From positions 62,001 through 126,000 of the forward strand of contig NZ_CP107880.1 in NCBI RefSeq assembly GCF_036013745.1: a stretch of DNA of 64,000 nt, in the 5' to 3' direction. Of this stretch, positions 55,405 through 64,000 are shown piece after piece (positions within the stretch are counted from its first letter, which is position 1; each line of letters begins with the position of its first letter). A program made the position numbers and the translations under genes. The notes under the pieces were generated by a model. It worked only from the letters and a program-made list of their open reading frames with translations. It did no database searches and was not told the DNA's origin. The DNA is from Streptomyces sp. NBC_00483. GTDB taxonomy: Bacteria; Actinomycetota; Actinomycetes; Streptomycetales; Streptomycetaceae.

Positions 55405-57147
55405 TCAGGCCCCTGCGCCCCGCAGTTCGGCCAGCGCGGCCGCGTTCAGCGGGCGCGGCGCGGAGTCCGTGCCGGTGCCGACGAGGACGACCGTGCACGC
55501 GCAGGCGTGGGTGAGGGCGGTGGTGAAGCTGCCGTCGGCGAACTGGGTGAGCGGGCCGCGCGGCGAGTGCCCGACGGCCACGACGCGGGCGCCGACGTCC
55601 GCCGCGTGCCGGGCCAGCGCGCGGCCGGCGGCGGCATGGTCCCCGACGCTGTTCAGCACCTGCCCCGTGGCGGCCACCCCCGCACCCGCGAGCCGGTCGA
55701 GGTGGTCCCGCACGGCGGCGCGGGCCTGCGCGAGGTCCTCGGCATCGGCGGCCTGGTCGTCGACGACGGCGGTCTGCCGGACGTGCACGACCTCCAGCGG
55801 GCTGCCGGTGTCCCGGGCGAGGCGTGCGGCCGCGTCGACGATGGCGGGCGCCCGGTCGTGGTCCCCGACGGCGACGACGACGCGCGGGTCGCTACTCGGA
55901 GCCACGGCTCCCACAGGCGTGAGTGACGGCTGCACCGGCTCGCCCCCGCCCAGGTTCGCCTCGGCCTGCCGCAGCAGCCGGTGCCCGCTGGCGAGGACCG
56001 GGATGGCGAGGACGAAGGTGAGCGCGGCCAGGTAGAAGGGCACGCTCAGGTCCATGGCGTCGGCCAGCTTGCCCGCGACGTACGGCGCGAGGCCGCCGCC
56101 GATGAATCGCAGGAAGCCGTACGCGGACGAGGCGACGGGGCGTTCCACCGGCGAGACCAGCATGACGGCCTGCGTGGTGAGTGTGTTGTTGATGCCGATG
56201 AAGGCACCGCTGACGATGACCGCGACGATCACGACGGTCGGCGTCGAGACCCCGGCGGCGATGACCGCCATCACGACACCGAGGCAGAAGAGATTCGCGT
56301 ACAGGACGGCCGCGGTGCCGTAGCGCGCCTGGAGGCGCGGCGCGAAGTACACGCTGAACAGGGCGACCAGAAGTCCCCAGCCGGTGAAGACGAGGCCGAG
56401 TTCGTGGGCGTCGAGCTCCATGGGGTACGGCGCGTACCCGAGCATCGTGAAGAAGCCCCAGTTGTAGAGCAGCGCCATGATGCCCATGGTCAGCAGGCCG
56501 CGGTGGCGCAGTGCCTTGAGCGGGGCGATCGGCGACGTGATCTTCTTCGGCCTGGGCAGATCGGGTACGAGGGCGATGGTGGCGACCAGTGCGACGGCCA
56601 TCAGGACGGCGACGCCGAAGAAGGGACCGCGCCAGCTGATCGCCCCCAACTCGCCGCCGAGCAGCGGCCCGACGGCGATCCCGAGGCCGAGCGCGGTCTC
56701 GTAGAGGATGATCGCGCCGCCGAATCCGCCGCTCGCCGAGGCGACGATGACGGCCAGGGAGGTGGCGATGAACAGCGCGTTGCCGAGCCCCCAGCCGGCC
56801 CGGAACCCCACGATGCCGTTGATGGAGCCGGTGGCTCCGGCGAGCGCCGAGAAGACGACGATGACGCTCAGGCCTATGACGAGGGTGCGCTTGGCGCCGA
56901 AGCGGCTGGAGAACCATCCGACGACGAGCATCGCGACCGCGGTGACGATGAGATAGCTGCTGAACAGCAGGGACACCTGGCTGGGCGTGGCATGCAGGCT
57001 GTCGGCCAGGGCGGGCAGGATCGGGTCCACGAGACCGATGCCCATGAACGAGATGACGCAGGCGAACGCGACGGCCCAGACGGCCTTCGGCTGCTTGAAG
57101 GGGCTCGCTTTCGTCGCTACCCGCTGCTGCATGCCGCCATCATGCAT
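55405..57147 (-). CDS. MFS transporter with C-terminal UspA domain (fusion)
   Basis: A 580-residue fusion. The N-terminal 12-helix MFS part (about 20-410) begins FACVISFMGIGLVDPILPALADSLHATPSQVSLLFSSYL and has VGWFSSRFGAKRTLVIG motif A. A linker (415-430) leads to a universal stress protein domain (430-570), with VVVAVGDHDRAPAIVDAAARLA, VVAVGHSPRG and PLTQFADGSFTTALTHACACTVVLVG. The last is the ATP-binding GxxG-like run. This joining could make transport answer to ATP or stress state. ATG 57147 or 57132 may be the start; neither has a clear ribosome site. Confidence 0.83.
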   Translation of the reverse strand: MHDGGMQQRVATKASPFKQPKAVWAVAFACVISFMGIGLVDPILPALADSLHATPSQVSLLFSSYLIVTAVAMLVVGWFSSRFGAKRTLVIGLSVIVVFSALAGATGSINGIVGFRAGWGLGNALFIATSLAVIVASASGGFGGAIILYETALGLGIAVGPLLGGELGAISWRGPFFGVAVLMAVALVATIALVPDLPRPKKITSPIAPLKALRHRGLLTMGIMALLYNWGFFTMLGYAPYPMELDAHELGLVFTGWGLLVALFSVYFAPRLQARYGTAAVLYANLFCLGVVMAVIAAGVSTPTVVIVAVIVSGAFIGINNTLTTQAVMLVSPVERPVASSAYGFLRFIGGGLAPYVAGKLADAMDLSVPFYLAALTFVLAIPVLASGHRLLRQAEANLGGGEPVQPSLTPVGAVAPSSDPRVVVAVGDHDRAPAIVDAAARLARDTGSPLEVVHVRQTAVVDDQAADAEDLAQARAAVRDHLDRLAGAGVAATGQVLNSVGDHAAAGRALARHAADVGARVVAVGHSPRGPLTQFADGSFTTALTHACACTVVLVGTGTDSAPRPLNAAALAELRGAGA

Positions 57148-59512: not shown

Positions 59513-59929
59513 GTGCCTCAGATCACCGTCGACTACTCGCCCCGACTCACCGACACCCTCGACCGGGCCGCCCTCGCCACCGCGTTGCACGCCCTGGTCG
59601 TCGAGGGATCCGGCTCGCGCGGCACCTGCAAGACGTTCTTCCGCGCCGCCACGGAGACGTACGTCGTCGGCAGCGAGCACGACGACGTGCCGGTCGTGCA
59701 CGTGGAGGTGGCGCTGCTCCCGGGGCGCAGCGAGCGGACCATGACGCGCCTGTCGCAGCGGATTCTGGCGCTGCTCCTGGAGCACGTGGGCGCGGGCGCC
59801 GGTGCCGACGTGGTGTGTTCGGCCGAGGTGCGCCCCCTCGCGGCGTACAGCCTGTATCCGACCCGCCGCGAGTTCAGCGCCACGACGGGGTCCCGTCCCG
59901 AGCGCCACGGGTGCACCCCCGCCGCCTAG
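59513..59929 (+). CDS. 5-carboxymethyl-2-hydroxymuconate isomerase (CHMI)-like tautomerase
   Basis: A 138-residue tautomerase-fold protein. It opens MPQITVDYSP, leaving Pro1 as the catalytic base after removal of Met. HALVVEGSGSRGTCKTFFRAATETYVVG and VVHVEVALLPGRSERTMTRLSQRILALL are typical of the CHMI family. In homoprotocatechuate catabolism it isomerises 5-carboxymethyl-2-hydroxymuconate; no other hpc gene lies nearby, so the role here is open. GTG 59513 follows GGAGG. The stop overlaps the convergent FG-GAP stop by 4 bases. Confidence 0.82.
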   Translation: MPQITVDYSPRLTDTLDRAALATALHALVVEGSGSRGTCKTFFRAATETYVVGSEHDDVPVVHVEVALLPGRSERTMTRLSQRILALLLEHVGAGAGADVVCSAEVRPLAAYSLYPTRREFSATTGSRPERHGCTPAA

Positions 59930-61299
59930 TTCAGCGGTCGCGCCACCTTTCGGACGTCGAAGGACTCCATCTCTTTCCCCGAGCCGTCGACCACCCGCCA
60001 GGTGTTGCCCGAGGCCAGGACGAGTTCGTCGCGGCCGTCGCCGTCGACATCGGCGGCGTCCTTGATCCGGCCCGAGGGCCGCGGCAGCGAGTGCCACGGC
60101 CCGGAGCCCAGGCCCGGCGAGGAGCCGCCCCGCAGGATGTCGATCCGGTCGTGCCCGCCCACCCGGTCGTCGTCGCTGCGGACGGCGAGGTCGTCGCAGC
60201 CGTCGCCGTTGACGTCCGCGGCCATCAGGTCGATACCGAAGCCGCCCTTGCGGGCGCCGCCGTCGATGATGACCGGGGCCTCGGGCGCCTTGCCGTAACG
60301 GATGGTCACCTTGCCCTTGCGGTCGCGCGGTGCGAACTCGTCGTCCATGGGGACGCCACTGTCACCGAGGGCGATGTCGGGCCGTCCGTCGCCGTCGAAG
60401 TCGCCGACGGCGACGTTCTCGCCGCGCGGCAGCGGTGCGGGCCGCGCGGCGAGCCCGCTCGCGGTGTCCGCTCCCCCGGCCAACACCCGAAGCGCGTCCG
60501 GCGCTCCGGGTTTGTACACCAGCAGGTCGGTGGCCCGGTCGCCGGTCACCTCCGCCGCGATCAGCCGAAGGCCGGTGACGGTGTCGGCCGAGCCGCTGTA
60601 GGGGTCGGCGCGTTCGGTGATCCTCGCCGGCTTGCCGGTTCGGGCGAACGGGCCCTGAAGCACCACGAGGTGACGCTCGTGCAGGCCGGTGCGGTAGGTG
60701 GCCAGGTCGACCCGGCCGTCGCCGTCGAAGTCCCCTGCCACCGGCGGGTCCTCGTAGACGTCGTTGCCCTTGCTGATCCGTACCGGCTGTCCCTTGCCCA
60801 TGTGCGGAAGCGGGATGCGCGCTGCCTTGTGGCCGGGGTCCGGGCCTTGTGCGCCGCCCCACTGCACATGGGCGCTGCCGCCCGCCACGAGGTCGAGGTG
60901 GCCGTCGCCGTCCAGGTCGGCGACGGTCGGACCGCTCTCCCCGTCGGTCATGGAGTCGTGCTCGGGCAGGTCGAAGTCCGTGGGCGTGAACACCGTGCGC
61001 TCGCCGGCCCGGGCACCGTGCAGCAGGGCGATGCGGCCGGTCTGGTAGACGTCACCGTTGCCGGCCGGGACACCGAGCGCCAGGTCCGGGCTGCCGCCGC
61101 CGTCGAAGTCGGGAGCGGGGGTGCCCGCGCTCTTCGCCTTCGCGGCCGACGCCGCGCAGGCGCTGTCCGGGACCTGCGGATAACCCTCCTGGTGGCGGGC
61201 GCCCGTGGCGGTGCCCAGGACCAGTGCGGTGGCGAGGAGGCCGATGCCCCGTCGCCACCATGGTCCGCGGCGCGGAGGTGCTGTCGGCTCGCATGTCAT
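59926..61299 (-). CDS. Secreted FG-GAP/VCBS-repeat protein
   Basis: A 457-residue exported beta-propeller. The N-terminus (RRGPWWRRGIGLLATALVLGTATG) is an export signal. At least seven FG-GAP/calcium-binding repeats follow with motifs like DFDGGGSPDLALG, DLDGDGHLDLVAGG, DFDGDGRVDLA, DFDGDGRPDIALGD, DVNGDGCDDLAV and DVDGDGRDELVLASG. Each DxDGDG loop likely binds calcium. It probably mediates extracellular binding, or acts as a surface scaffold; no catalytic domain is seen. It is monocistronic and convergent with CHMI. Confidence 0.88.
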   Translation of the reverse strand: MTCEPTAPPRRGPWWRRGIGLLATALVLGTATGARHQEGYPQVPDSACAASAAKAKSAGTPAPDFDGGGSPDLALGVPAGNGDVYQTGRIALLHGARAGERTVFTPTDFDLPEHDSMTDGESGPTVADLDGDGHLDLVAGGSAHVQWGGAQGPDPGHKAARIPLPHMGKGQPVRISKGNDVYEDPPVAGDFDGDGRVDLATYRTGLHERHLVVLQGPFARTGKPARITERADPYSGSADTVTGLRLIAAEVTGDRATDLLVYKPGAPDALRVLAGGADTASGLAARPAPLPRGENVAVGDFDGDGRPDIALGDSGVPMDDEFAPRDRKGKVTIRYGKAPEAPVIIDGGARKGGFGIDLMAADVNGDGCDDLAVRSDDDRVGGHDRIDILRGGSSPGLGSGPWHSLPRPSGRIKDAADVDGDGRDELVLASGNTWRVVDGSGKEMESFDVRKVARPLN

Positions 61300-61381: not shown

Positions 61382-62008
61382 TCAGCCGAGGCGCTCTTGC
61401 AGCCGGGCCACGTTGGCCGCCACGTCGCCGCGCGTGAGGTCGCTGCCGATGCTCACCGAGAAGGCGCCCGCGGCGAGCCACTTGTCGGCGTCGTCCACGC
61501 TCACACCGCCCGTCGCCATGATCCGGGCGCCGGGCAGCACGGAGAGCACGGACTTCAGGTAGGCGATGCCTCCGACGTGCGCGGGGAACAGCTTGGCGAC
61601 GCCCCGGTCCGCCGCGATGCGCAGCTCACTCGGGGTGAGACCGCCCTCGACGAGGAGCCGGCCCGCGGCATCGGCGACGGGACGCACCTCGGGCACCTGG
61701 AAAGGACTCACCAGGAAGTTCGCACCGGCCGCCAGGGCGCGTTCGGCGATCTCTGGCGAAGTGACGGTGCCGAGGCCGAGTGTCACCTCGGGGAACTCCT
61801 TCACCCAGGCCGCTACGAGGTCCTCCCAGCCGGGTGTGGTGGCGGTGAACTCGAAGGCGGTGAGGCCGCAGTTCACGAGGGTGCGGGCCACCGCGTCGGC
61901 GGTGTCGGCGTCGGCCTCGCGCACGGTCGGGGTGACGCGCGCGGCGCGCAGGGCGTCGATGACTTCGGCGTACATGGTGGACTCCGGTCGGGTACGGGCT
62001 GTGGTCAT
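61382..62008 (-). CDS. KDPG/KDGP-type aldolase (DgaF-like)
   Basis: A 208-residue class I aldolase that would split a 2-keto-3-deoxy-phosphosugar acid into pyruvate and a triose phosphate. The KDPG aldolase hallmarks are Glu53 in FEFTATTPG and the Schiff-base Lys139 in GVAKLFPAHVGG. ATG 62008 overlaps the TGA of the HPr gene (ATGA), so the start is fixed by coupling. It completes the DgaE-type ammonia lyase pathway encoded just upstream. It is the last gene of the operon. Confidence 0.86.
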   Translation of the reverse strand: MTTARTRPESTMYAEVIDALRAARVTPTVREADADTADAVARTLVNCGLTAFEFTATTPGWEDLVAAWVKEFPEVTLGLGTVTSPEIAERALAAGANFLVSPFQVPEVRPVADAAGRLLVEGGLTPSELRIAADRGVAKLFPAHVGGIAYLKSVLSVLPGARIMATGGVSVDDADKWLAAGAFSVSIGSDLTRGDVAANVARLQERLG

Positions 62009-62268
62009 GCCGGGGCCGCGATCTCGGCGAGGGCGTCCAGGGTCGACTCGGCGTCGGCCCCGCGGGCGCGCAGCACGATGGCGTCGCCGCAGCGGATGTT
62101 GAGTGTCATCAGCGACAGGACGCTGCGGGCGGGGACCTCGTGGCCGTCCTCCCGCGCGACGGTCACGTCGGAGGAGGCGCGGGAGGCGGTCTGGGCGAAG
62201 GCGGCGGCGGGGCGGGCGTGCAGGCCGGCCTCCTCGGTGACCACCAGGCGTCGTTCGACGACGGTCAT
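62005..62268 (-). CDS. HPr-type phosphocarrier protein
   Basis: An 87-residue PTS phosphocarrier. EEAGLHARPAAAF (12-24) carries the phosphorylated His17, and ARSVLSLMTLNI (47-58) carries the regulatory serine region (Ser49). The start ATG 62268 overlaps the stop of the DgaE-type gene, and its own stop overlaps the aldolase start: a double ATGA overlap. A dedicated HPr in a sugar-acid operon is unusual, since HPr is normally a general protein encoded alone. It implies that the operon's transporter is phosphotransferase-driven. Confidence 0.9.
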   Translation of the reverse strand: MTVVERRLVVTEEAGLHARPAAAFAQTASRASSDVTVAREDGHEVPARSVLSLMTLNIRCGDAIVLRARGADAESTLDALAEIAAPA

Positions 62269-63368
62269 CGGTTGTTCTCTCCGTCCAGCAGTGCGGTCAG
62301 CCGGTCCACCAGCTGTTCCTCTTCGTCGGGGTTCATGGGGCGCGGGTCGATCGCGAGGCGTCCCGTGACGGCGTGATGATCCCTCAAGTAGACGCCGACC
62401 GCGGCGAGTTCTGCGGCGAGAGTTGCCGCGTCGCGGCCCGCCGTCCCGGGGTCCACGGTGAGTTCGGTGCGGTGGATGTCGCGTCCCGCCTCGTCGCTGA
62501 CGACGCGGGTGGTGAGGCCCGGCAGGTCCGCGAGGCGCGCGGCGAGCTTCTCCATGCGCGGCCGGTGCCCGCCGCTCTGGGCGCTGCCGTACTCGCGCAG
62601 GGCCTGCACGAGGCCGAAGAGGGTCTCCTTGCCGACCTTCATCGGGCGGGCGATGCCGCCGTACTGGGCCCGGCACGCCGCCATGTGCGCGGCGCTGCCG
62701 CAGATCATCCCGGACGTCGGTCCGCCAACGGCCTTGCCGCCGCTGTAGATCACGAGGTCGGCGCCGGTGGCGGGCCAGCGGCGCAGTTCGCCCTCGGCCG
62801 CGGCGTCGACGATGACCGGGAGGTCGTGGGCGCGGGCCACCTCGATGGTCTCCGCCAGGGAGACCATGCCCTTCTGCACGGCGTGGTGGGACTGGACGTA
62901 CAGCAGGGCCGCGGTGCGCGGGCCGATCGCGCCGGCCAGGTGGCCGGCGCTCACCTTGTTCGCGGAACCCACCTCGACGGGGCGGCCACCGCCGAGCGCG
63001 ACCATCTGCCGTACGGGCGCGCCGAAGTGGACGGAGTGGCCGCGCGGCAGGATCACCTCGCAGGGGGCGTCGCCCGCGTCGGGCAGGGCTTCGATGCGGG
63101 ACAGGTCGGTGCCCGCGACGACGGCGGCGACCGCGATGGCGATGCCGGAGGCGGCGCCGGTGGTGGGACAGCCGTCCTCGGTGCCGGTGGCACGGCCGAT
63201 CTCGCGGCCGACGGCGGCCATCAGGTCGTCCATGACGACGTGATGGCGGGCGGCCTCGCCCATCGCGGCGACGACGCCGTCACTGAGGACACTGCCGCCG
63301 AGCGCCGTCATCTTGCCGCTGGCGTTGATGGCGGGGGGTGTGCCGAGGTCGTGGTGGAGAGATTGCAC
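62265..63368 (-). CDS. DgaE-family PLP-dependent ammonia lyase
   Basis: A 367-residue fold-type I PLP enzyme related to D-glucosaminate-6-phosphate ammonia-lyase (SelA-like). It has GCPTTGAASGIAIAVAAVVAG (67-87) for phosphate contact, VIVDAAAEGELRRW and the Schiff-base Lys212 in YSGGKAVGGPTSG. It would eliminate ammonia from an amino-sugar-acid phosphate to give the keto-deoxy acid for the aldolase. The start follows the membrane gene by 37 bases. It is translationally coupled to HPr. Confidence 0.86.
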   Translation of the reverse strand: MQSLHHDLGTPPAINASGKMTALGGSVLSDGVVAAMGEAARHHVVMDDLMAAVGREIGRATGTEDGCPTTGAASGIAIAVAAVVAGTDLSRIEALPDAGDAPCEVILPRGHSVHFGAPVRQMVALGGGRPVEVGSANKVSAGHLAGAIGPRTAALLYVQSHHAVQKGMVSLAETIEVARAHDLPVIVDAAAEGELRRWPATGADLVIYSGGKAVGGPTSGMICGSAAHMAACRAQYGGIARPMKVGKETLFGLVQALREYGSAQSGGHRPRMEKLAARLADLPGLTTRVVSDEAGRDIHRTELTVDPGTAGRDAATLAAELAAVGVYLRDHHAVTGRLAIDPRPMNPDEEEQLVDRLTALLDGENNR

Positions 63369-63405
63369 GGTGCTTCCTCAAGCTCTGAATGGCCCAGGAG
63401 GGCGG

Positions 63406-64000
63406 TCACTTGCCGGGGATCGGGAAGAAGAGGCCCGCGATCATCGCGCCGATGATGGCGCCACCGGTCAGCGGCTTCTGCCACTTGTAGAAGAGCGCGG
63501 CGCCGATGGTCGAGCCGATGCCGACGGGCAGCGACGCGGTGGCGGCGGAGATGATGACGAGCGGGCCCAGATAGCGTCCGGCGGAGTTGCCCGCGCCCAT
63601 CATCACGTCGGCGCCGAACGTGGAGGTGCCGCCCGTCGAGTTCACGGTGGCGCGCCGGATCGCGAGGATCGCGATGCCGATGAGGCCGCCGAGGAGGGCG
63701 CCCACCGGGATGGCGAGCCAGAAGTGTTCGAGCGGGGCGGTGAATCCGGCGCCGAGCAGCATGGCGGGGATGCCGATGCCGACGCCGGTCTGGAGGGAGC
63801 CGCCGATGTCGAGGATGCCGACCATGGGCCCCTCGATGATGCGGGCGAACAGGAAGCCGGCGCCGAAGGCGGCCGCGGCGCCGTAACTGCCGTTCTCCAT
63901 ACCGGCTTTCAGCATGGAGGCGACCGCGACGTCGCTGAACACGCCGGTCCCGTACGTGTAGTAGAGCTGTGTGCCGGTGAAGATGCCGGCGGCCAGGCAG
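63406..64000 (-). CDS. Probable DUF4310-family membrane protein, 5' end cut by window edge
   Basis: About 198 C-terminal residues are visible of a hydrophobic, glycine-rich membrane protein. It has GTQLYYTYGTGVFSDVAVASM at the left, GSYGAAAAFGAGFLFARIIEGPMVGILDIGGS, SLQTGVGIGIPAMLLGAGF and GADVMMGAGNSAGRYLGPLVIISAATASLPVGIGS. At least four spans are visible. I recognise the pattern as DUF4310, a member of the DUF4310/4311/4312 and Gly-rich SFCGS group that accompanies DgaE and KDGP aldolase in other bacteria. It is a probable component of a PTS-like transporter; the open frame reaches the edge with no start. Confidence 0.65.
   Translation of the reverse strand, partial: CLAAGIFTGTQLYYTYGTGVFSDVAVASMLKAGMENGSYGAAAAFGAGFLFARIIEGPMVGILDIGGSLQTGVGIGIPAMLLGAGFTAPLEHFWLAIPVGALLGGLIGIAILAIRRATVNSTGGTSTFGADVMMGAGNSAGRYLGPLVIISAATASLPVGIGSTIGAALFYKWQKPLTGGAIIGAMIAGLFFPIPGK

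Follow-up and report, generated by a model that had tools for sequence, protein, structure and literature searches.

The nine-gene operon at the right edge of the window (the whole 64,000-nt stretch analysed here, G000:C1:62001-126000 of the 10.24-Mb single-contig genome of Streptomyces sp. NBC_00483) would, in the reading that we hold with about even confidence, encode a PTS-coupled phosphorylating importer for an N-acylated 2-amino-2-deoxy-aldonate (N-acetyl-glucosaminate-like), together with the enzymes that break it down. The link to the PTS has good support, because related clusters carry varied and unrelated HPrs, DgaE-HPr fusions and, in two clusters, HPr-Enzyme I pairs, and because the histidines of their PRD protein are conserved. 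We further infer that phosphorylation occurs during transport, that the phosphoryl group passes via the PRD and SFCGS proteins, that the DUF proteins have a transport role, and that the substrate is of the kind named. The most likely mechanism, as yet unproven, is a PTS permease of new build. The preliminary description of this stretch had suggested phosphotransfer-driven uptake of an amino-sugar acid; the phosphotransfer part gained support from the features above, but no known EII family was found, the SFCGS protein proved to be RpiB-like, and the lyase falls below the cut-off for D-glucosaminate-6-phosphate lyase.

The end of the window falls within the operon, and the part past 64000 was read from L006 (G000:C1:120001-140000), with window numbering continued. 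All nine genes lie on the minus strand. In transcription order, five genes outside the window encode an EF_0837-like amidohydrolase (66128-67288), a lone PRD protein of 131 aa (65687-66082; TIGR03582, weak, 2.1e-5), the glycine-rich SFCGS protein (65294-65662; PF14272, 3e-47), DUF4312 (64962-65297; PF14189, 9.3e-22) and DUF4311 (64169-64957; PF14188, 5.4e-106). They are followed by the DUF4310 membrane protein of 249 aa (63406-64155, with its 3' part, 63406-64000, in the window; TIGR03579, 297.7 bits, cut-off 215.45), a DgaE-family PLP-dependent ammonia-lyase of 367 aa with a GTG start (62265-63368; TIGR01437, 404.8 bits, cut-off 385.3), an HPr phosphocarrier of 87 aa (62005-62268; PF00381, 7.2e-26) and, last, a KDPG/KHG-type aldolase of 208 aa (61382-62008; PF01081, 4e-30). 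From amidohydrolase to aldolase the intergenic gaps are 45, 24, -4, 4, 13, 37, -4 and -4 bases. Pfam and TIGR matches bear out the last four assignments, which had been made from the sequence alone, and an HMM search puts the membrane protein in the DUF4310 family (PF14187, 1.1e-90). The double ATGA overlaps described for these four genes exist at either end of HPr (DgaE/HPr at 62265-62268, HPr/aldolase at 62005-62008), but DUF4310 is 37 bases away from DgaE. Extension past 64000 had been advised as a search for DUF4311, DUF4312, SFCGS and EIIA/EIIB-like genes; the first three were indeed found there, along with the PRD protein and the amidohydrolase, but no EIIA, EIIB or EIIC of known family.

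An IclR regulator is encoded divergently from the operon on the plus strand (67467-68213, outside the window). The operon probably belongs to a chromosome arm, since one end of the 10.24-Mb contig is ~123-130 kb away. Judged by eye, the operon is followed on its own strand by a gene for an FG-GAP/VCBS-repeat-like protein (59926-61299), and a 580-aa frame at 55405-57147 resembles an MFS transporter that carries a universal-stress-protein-like domain at its C-terminus.

A DUF4311 scan of genome contigs gave 42 further loci, or 43 including the Streptomyces operon, and the DUF4310-4312/SFCGS cluster is present across Bacillota and some Actinomycetota. DUF4311 is encoded in all 43 loci, DUF4310 in 42, and PRD, SFCGS and DUF4312 in 40 each; amidohydrolase and DgaE occur in 38 each and HPr in 24, while a KDPG aldolase was found in 13, a PF07071-like KDGP aldolase in 23, and either aldolase in 36. 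Some of the absences may be unreal, because several loci (e.g. L016, L029, L038) are cut by contig ends. Order and strand of PRD-SFCGS-4312-4311-4310 are kept in 40/40 loci that have all five core genes. The system is rare by even sampling: DUF4311 exceeded its cut-off in one of 396 genomes of the phylum, that one being NBC_00483 itself, and SFCGS did so in 7 of 398 evenly sampled Bacillota, of which one, the centre genome, was known beforehand as a carrier. In the literature library searched, the cluster is without a reported function: no paper was found with DUF4310, nor with EF0831, EF0832, TIGR03580 or TIGR03577, and the query for DUF4311, DUF4312 and SFCGS matched only through the word SFCGS, in papers unrelated by title. 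Two sequences may be added as observations. A 265-aa frame in L138 (phylum-mate G580) has a partial, borderline DUF4311 match (E 0.001, below cut-off) and is a possible distant relative; and at L143:451-1173 (Bacillota) an in-frame TAG interrupts DUF4311 while a single open frame spans PRD and SFCGS, which may be decay, sequencing error or real.

The NBC_00483 genome holds two HPr genes in 10.24 Mb, and this scarcity, together with the recurrence of HPr in the cluster loci, argues that the operon HPr is not a chance neighbour. Within the stretches read, HPr occurs in 15/15 actinobacterial loci and in 9 of the 28 loci assigned by name to Bacillota; it was not found in the fetched stretch of the remaining 19, some of which are cut. 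It stands between DgaE and aldolase in Streptomyces, 3' of the aldolase in Microbacteriaceae and L046, ahead of the BglG-type regulator in Paenibacillus and Fusibacter, and after a HAD gene in L029 and L040. In a tree over 80 columns, built from 24 HPr rows of the cluster and 39 from elsewhere (the 39 being a subset of the HPrs of 17 genomes, with one NBC_00483 gene entered twice), the cluster label changes by seven gains or losses, at least four of them forced by well-supported branches; none of 500 label shuffles was as low as seven, and near-copies make such clustering easy. Judged by this tree, the cluster HPrs are several unrelated groups, not one. The phosphorylatable His (residue 17) is kept in 24/24 cluster HPrs and the regulatory Ser (49) in 23/24. 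Moreover, DgaE and HPr share a single open frame in L011, L015 and L025, and the combination of PF03841 and PF00381 was found in five database proteins, among which are those of L025 and L015.

Enzyme I was found within the cluster at one of the 43 loci, Desulfosporosinus L029, which reads 4311-4310-DgaE-KDGP aldolase-HAD-HPr-Enzyme I. Six further, evenly sampled Bacillota clusters were read for ~10 kb per side (less at contig ends and upstream in G200); one of them, L147 in G200, again has both genes, in the order amidohydrolase-PRD-SFCGS-4312-4311-4310-DgaE-KDGP aldolase-HAD-HPr-EI, and the other five have neither. Since the G200 and L029 genomes hold three EI genes each, the cluster HPr-EI pairs are extra copies. 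Downstream of the G200 cluster, a second frame of 681 aa (L147:589-2605) with a weak HPr match and an EI match is apparently a fused HPr-EI. NBC_00483 itself has Enzyme I in its genome and, in the operon, an HPr with the phosphorylatable His; genomes whose clusters are free of HPr may use a general HPr. Of the 41 cluster genomes searched, 40 have Enzyme I, the exception being the MAG G038, in which HPr is present; all six further SFCGS genomes have it too. This co-occurrence is weak evidence, because all 11 sampled same-genus genomes besides NBC_00483 have Enzyme I as well.

The operon PRD protein has no Pfam match and reaches 24.8 bits against TIGR03582 (cut-off 69.35). The profile of its family matches structure 3nuf (1.7e-22) and LicT (5.6e-10), with both histidines aligned to the PRD histidines of LicT, which we take to be phosphorylation sites. 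Both histidines, one Arg and one Glu are invariant over 40/40 loci, and in a 35-row alignment these invariant residues are His57, Arg64, Glu109 and His116. Thus, as far as alignment can tell, the protein keeps both histidines that PRDs use, which is a new finding here.

Structure prediction and profile comparison gave SFCGS the fold of ribose-5-phosphate isomerase B (RpiB). In common with RpiB/LacAB it has the fold and a Cys-Gly-Ser/Thr-Gly loop, the Cys loop being kept in 40/40, but its C-terminus is shorter and the catalytic residues differ: the column of the catalytic Asp holds Asp in 28/28 RpiB and Arg in 40/40 SFCGS, and that of the His holds His in 21/28 RpiB and in 0/40 SFCGS. On these models, the placement of SFCGS in the RpiB fold, with the Cys but without the catalytic Asp and His, is new here.

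In Pfam, no EIIA, EIIB or EIIC family was matched at E up to 0.1 by any of the nine operon products, HPr being scanned separately, or by the IclR regulator, and the membrane proteins matched only the DUFs themselves. DUF4310 has five strongly hydrophobic segments. The predicted DUF4311 model (pLDDT 82.2, pTM 0.60) is nearly all helical and gave no clear fold match to solved structures.

The catabolic enzymes bear on the source of phosphate. In DgaE the His pair and the PLP Lys are invariant (38/38), and so are Arg 300, 329 and 343, which align by count with the proposed phosphate-site arginines; in a model docked by hand, the substrate phosphate of the lyase lies near Arg-301, -332 and -346 (PMC9529869). 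The same source gives glucosaminate uptake in Salmonella as PTS-dependent. The operon aldolase matches KDPG aldolase structures (e.g. 1vlw, 1wa3, ~1e-20). KDPG aldolase, too, acts on a phosphorylated substrate. Pfam and TIGR scans found no kinase among the nine Streptomyces genes, and therefore phosphorylation on entry would be the simplest source of the phosphate; PfkB, the kinase family searched across loci, occurs in 3/43. Because the lyase scores 363 bits against the D-glucosaminate-6-phosphate lyase model (cut-off 600), the sugar acid need not be glucosaminate itself. The amidohydrolase matches structures 8wzy, 2ogj and 2ics; it exceeds the cut-off of NF006689 (386.9 vs 371) and is below that of TIGR03583, the EF_0837 model (326.2 vs 432.15), and from its family name it would take off an N-acyl group. 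In two Bacillota, N-acetylmuramate catabolism genes adjoin the cluster (L041:3680-5667, L046:2705-4767); these neighbours, presumably MurQ- and MupG/DUF871-like, match each other, hinting at cell-wall amino sugars as a substrate source.

In the pathway that we propose, phosphate would pass from PEP to Enzyme I, whose gene lies outside the operon, and on to HPr, then to the lone PRD (His57/His116) acting as EIIA, and from there to the RpiB-fold SFCGS protein (Cys56), which would act as EIIB and phosphorylate the substrate as it enters through DUF4311 and DUF4310, with DUF4312 as a putative accessory subunit. Inside the cell, the amidohydrolase would remove the N-acyl group, DgaE would deaminate the 6-phosphate to 2-keto-3-deoxy-gluconate-6-phosphate, and the aldolase would yield pyruvate and glyceraldehyde-3-phosphate. 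That this amounts to a PTS permease class which is new and arose independently, with a lone PRD in place of EIIA, an RpiB-fold protein, its isomerase Cys recruited as phosphoryl acceptor, in place of EIIB, a new two-subunit membrane part of DUF4311 and DUF4310, and E. coli YhfTUY as a sister system whose membrane part differs, is a somewhat more tentative proposal, to which we give slightly less than an even chance.

Several observations count against the importer reading: the lack of an EII family match and of a DUF4311 fold match, the 19/43 and 5/6 loci without HPr, G038 without Enzyme I, PfkB in 3/43 loci, and the missing second His of E. coli YhfY. HPr and PRD may have no more than a regulatory role, and DUF4310/DUF4311 could then form an ion-driven secondary transporter, with HPr and PRD governing inducer exclusion or expression and a kinase encoded elsewhere phosphorylating the substrate. 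PRD domains are classically regulatory, a BglG-type PRD regulator is found in 27/43 loci (Bacillota; domains read for five), similarity to EIIC was not found, PfkB does occur in those three loci, and five of the six Bacillota clusters from even sampling lack HPr. However, the PRD of the cluster stands alone, Pfam and TIGR scans having found no DNA- or RNA-binding part in it, the Streptomyces operon is without a kinase, and DgaE-HPr fusions, unrelated HPrs and HPr-EI pairs exceed the needs of a general regulator, and hence we regard the secondary transporter as rather unlikely.

The RpiB fold and the Cys loop would also suit SFCGS as a soluble RpiB-like catabolic enzyme, an amino-sugar acid isomerase or epimerase outside the transporter. 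Against this, the catalytic Asp is Arg in all 40 sequences and the His position is without His in all 40, the gene lies between PRD and DUF4312 in 40/40 loci, and its relative YhfU lies between PRD and membrane protein in 5/5 Bacillota loci; a catabolic role for SFCGS is thus improbable. It is less probable still, indeed very improbable, that HPr rides along in the operon by chance and plays no part in the system: its absence from the stretch read of many loci would fit, but its varied positions and unrelated groups, its in-frame joins with DgaE and the HPr-EI pairs in two clusters would not.

Among known systems, the conserved but uncharacterised cluster EF_0829-EF_0839 / AHA_3910-3914 (TIGR03577-TIGR03580, TIGR03582, TIGR03583, PF14187/14188/14189/14272), compared via family models, has SFCGS, DUF4312, DUF4311, DUF4310 and a DgaE-type lyase in common with the Streptomyces operon, and likewise a lone PRD and an amidohydrolase, which in the Streptomyces operon score below the cut-offs of TIGR03582 and TIGR03583. 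PF14187, PF14188, PF14189 and PF14272 are all above gathering cut-offs in the latter, and its DUF4312 is just under the cut-off of the narrower TIGR03578 (84.4 vs 89.65). Unlike that type, the Streptomyces operon has its own HPr inside, an IclR regulator where Bacillota have a BglG-type PRD regulator, and a KDPG (PF01081) in place of a KDGP (PF07071) aldolase. Salmonella dgaABCDEF, for D-glucosaminate, likewise joins a PTS-fed DgaE-type lyase, with phosphate-site Arg and His pair conserved, to an aldolase. Its permease is reportedly of the mannose family, going by a 2013 title of Miller and co-workers. According to PMC9529869, that permease is the PTS DgaABCD; in the Streptomyces operon, DgaABCD-like EII proteins were not found and a deacetylase-type amidohydrolase is added.

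An RpiB-fold SFCGS, invariant PRD histidines and varied cluster HPrs, twice with Enzyme I and several times fused to the lyase, provide a specific hypothesis for a DUF cluster so far opaque, namely a sugar-acid PTS made from parts that were not found described as EIIA or EIIB in the searches made. If right, it would also offer a starting point for understanding the E. coli yhf operon. The uncharacterised yhfS-yhfZ likewise has a lone PRD (YhfY), an SFCGS-like protein (YhfU/DUF2620), a membrane protein and a PLP enzyme, but its other catabolic genes differ and it has no annotated HPr; YhfT could not be related by sequence to DUF4311 or DUF4310. Profile comparison gave P 1e-4 and a probability of 57% for SFCGS-YhfU and 96.6% for PRD-YhfY, and the DUF2620 protein of L057 matched the SFCGS model over its full length (0.001, below cut-off), with weak RpiB cross-matches (0.065-0.79). 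By these profiles, YhfU and YhfY are remote relatives of SFCGS and PRD. The five Bacillota loci with YhfU between PRD and membrane protein have a YhfY-type PRD and YhfT on its two sides, and in E. coli php, yhfW and yhfX separate yhfU from yhfY.
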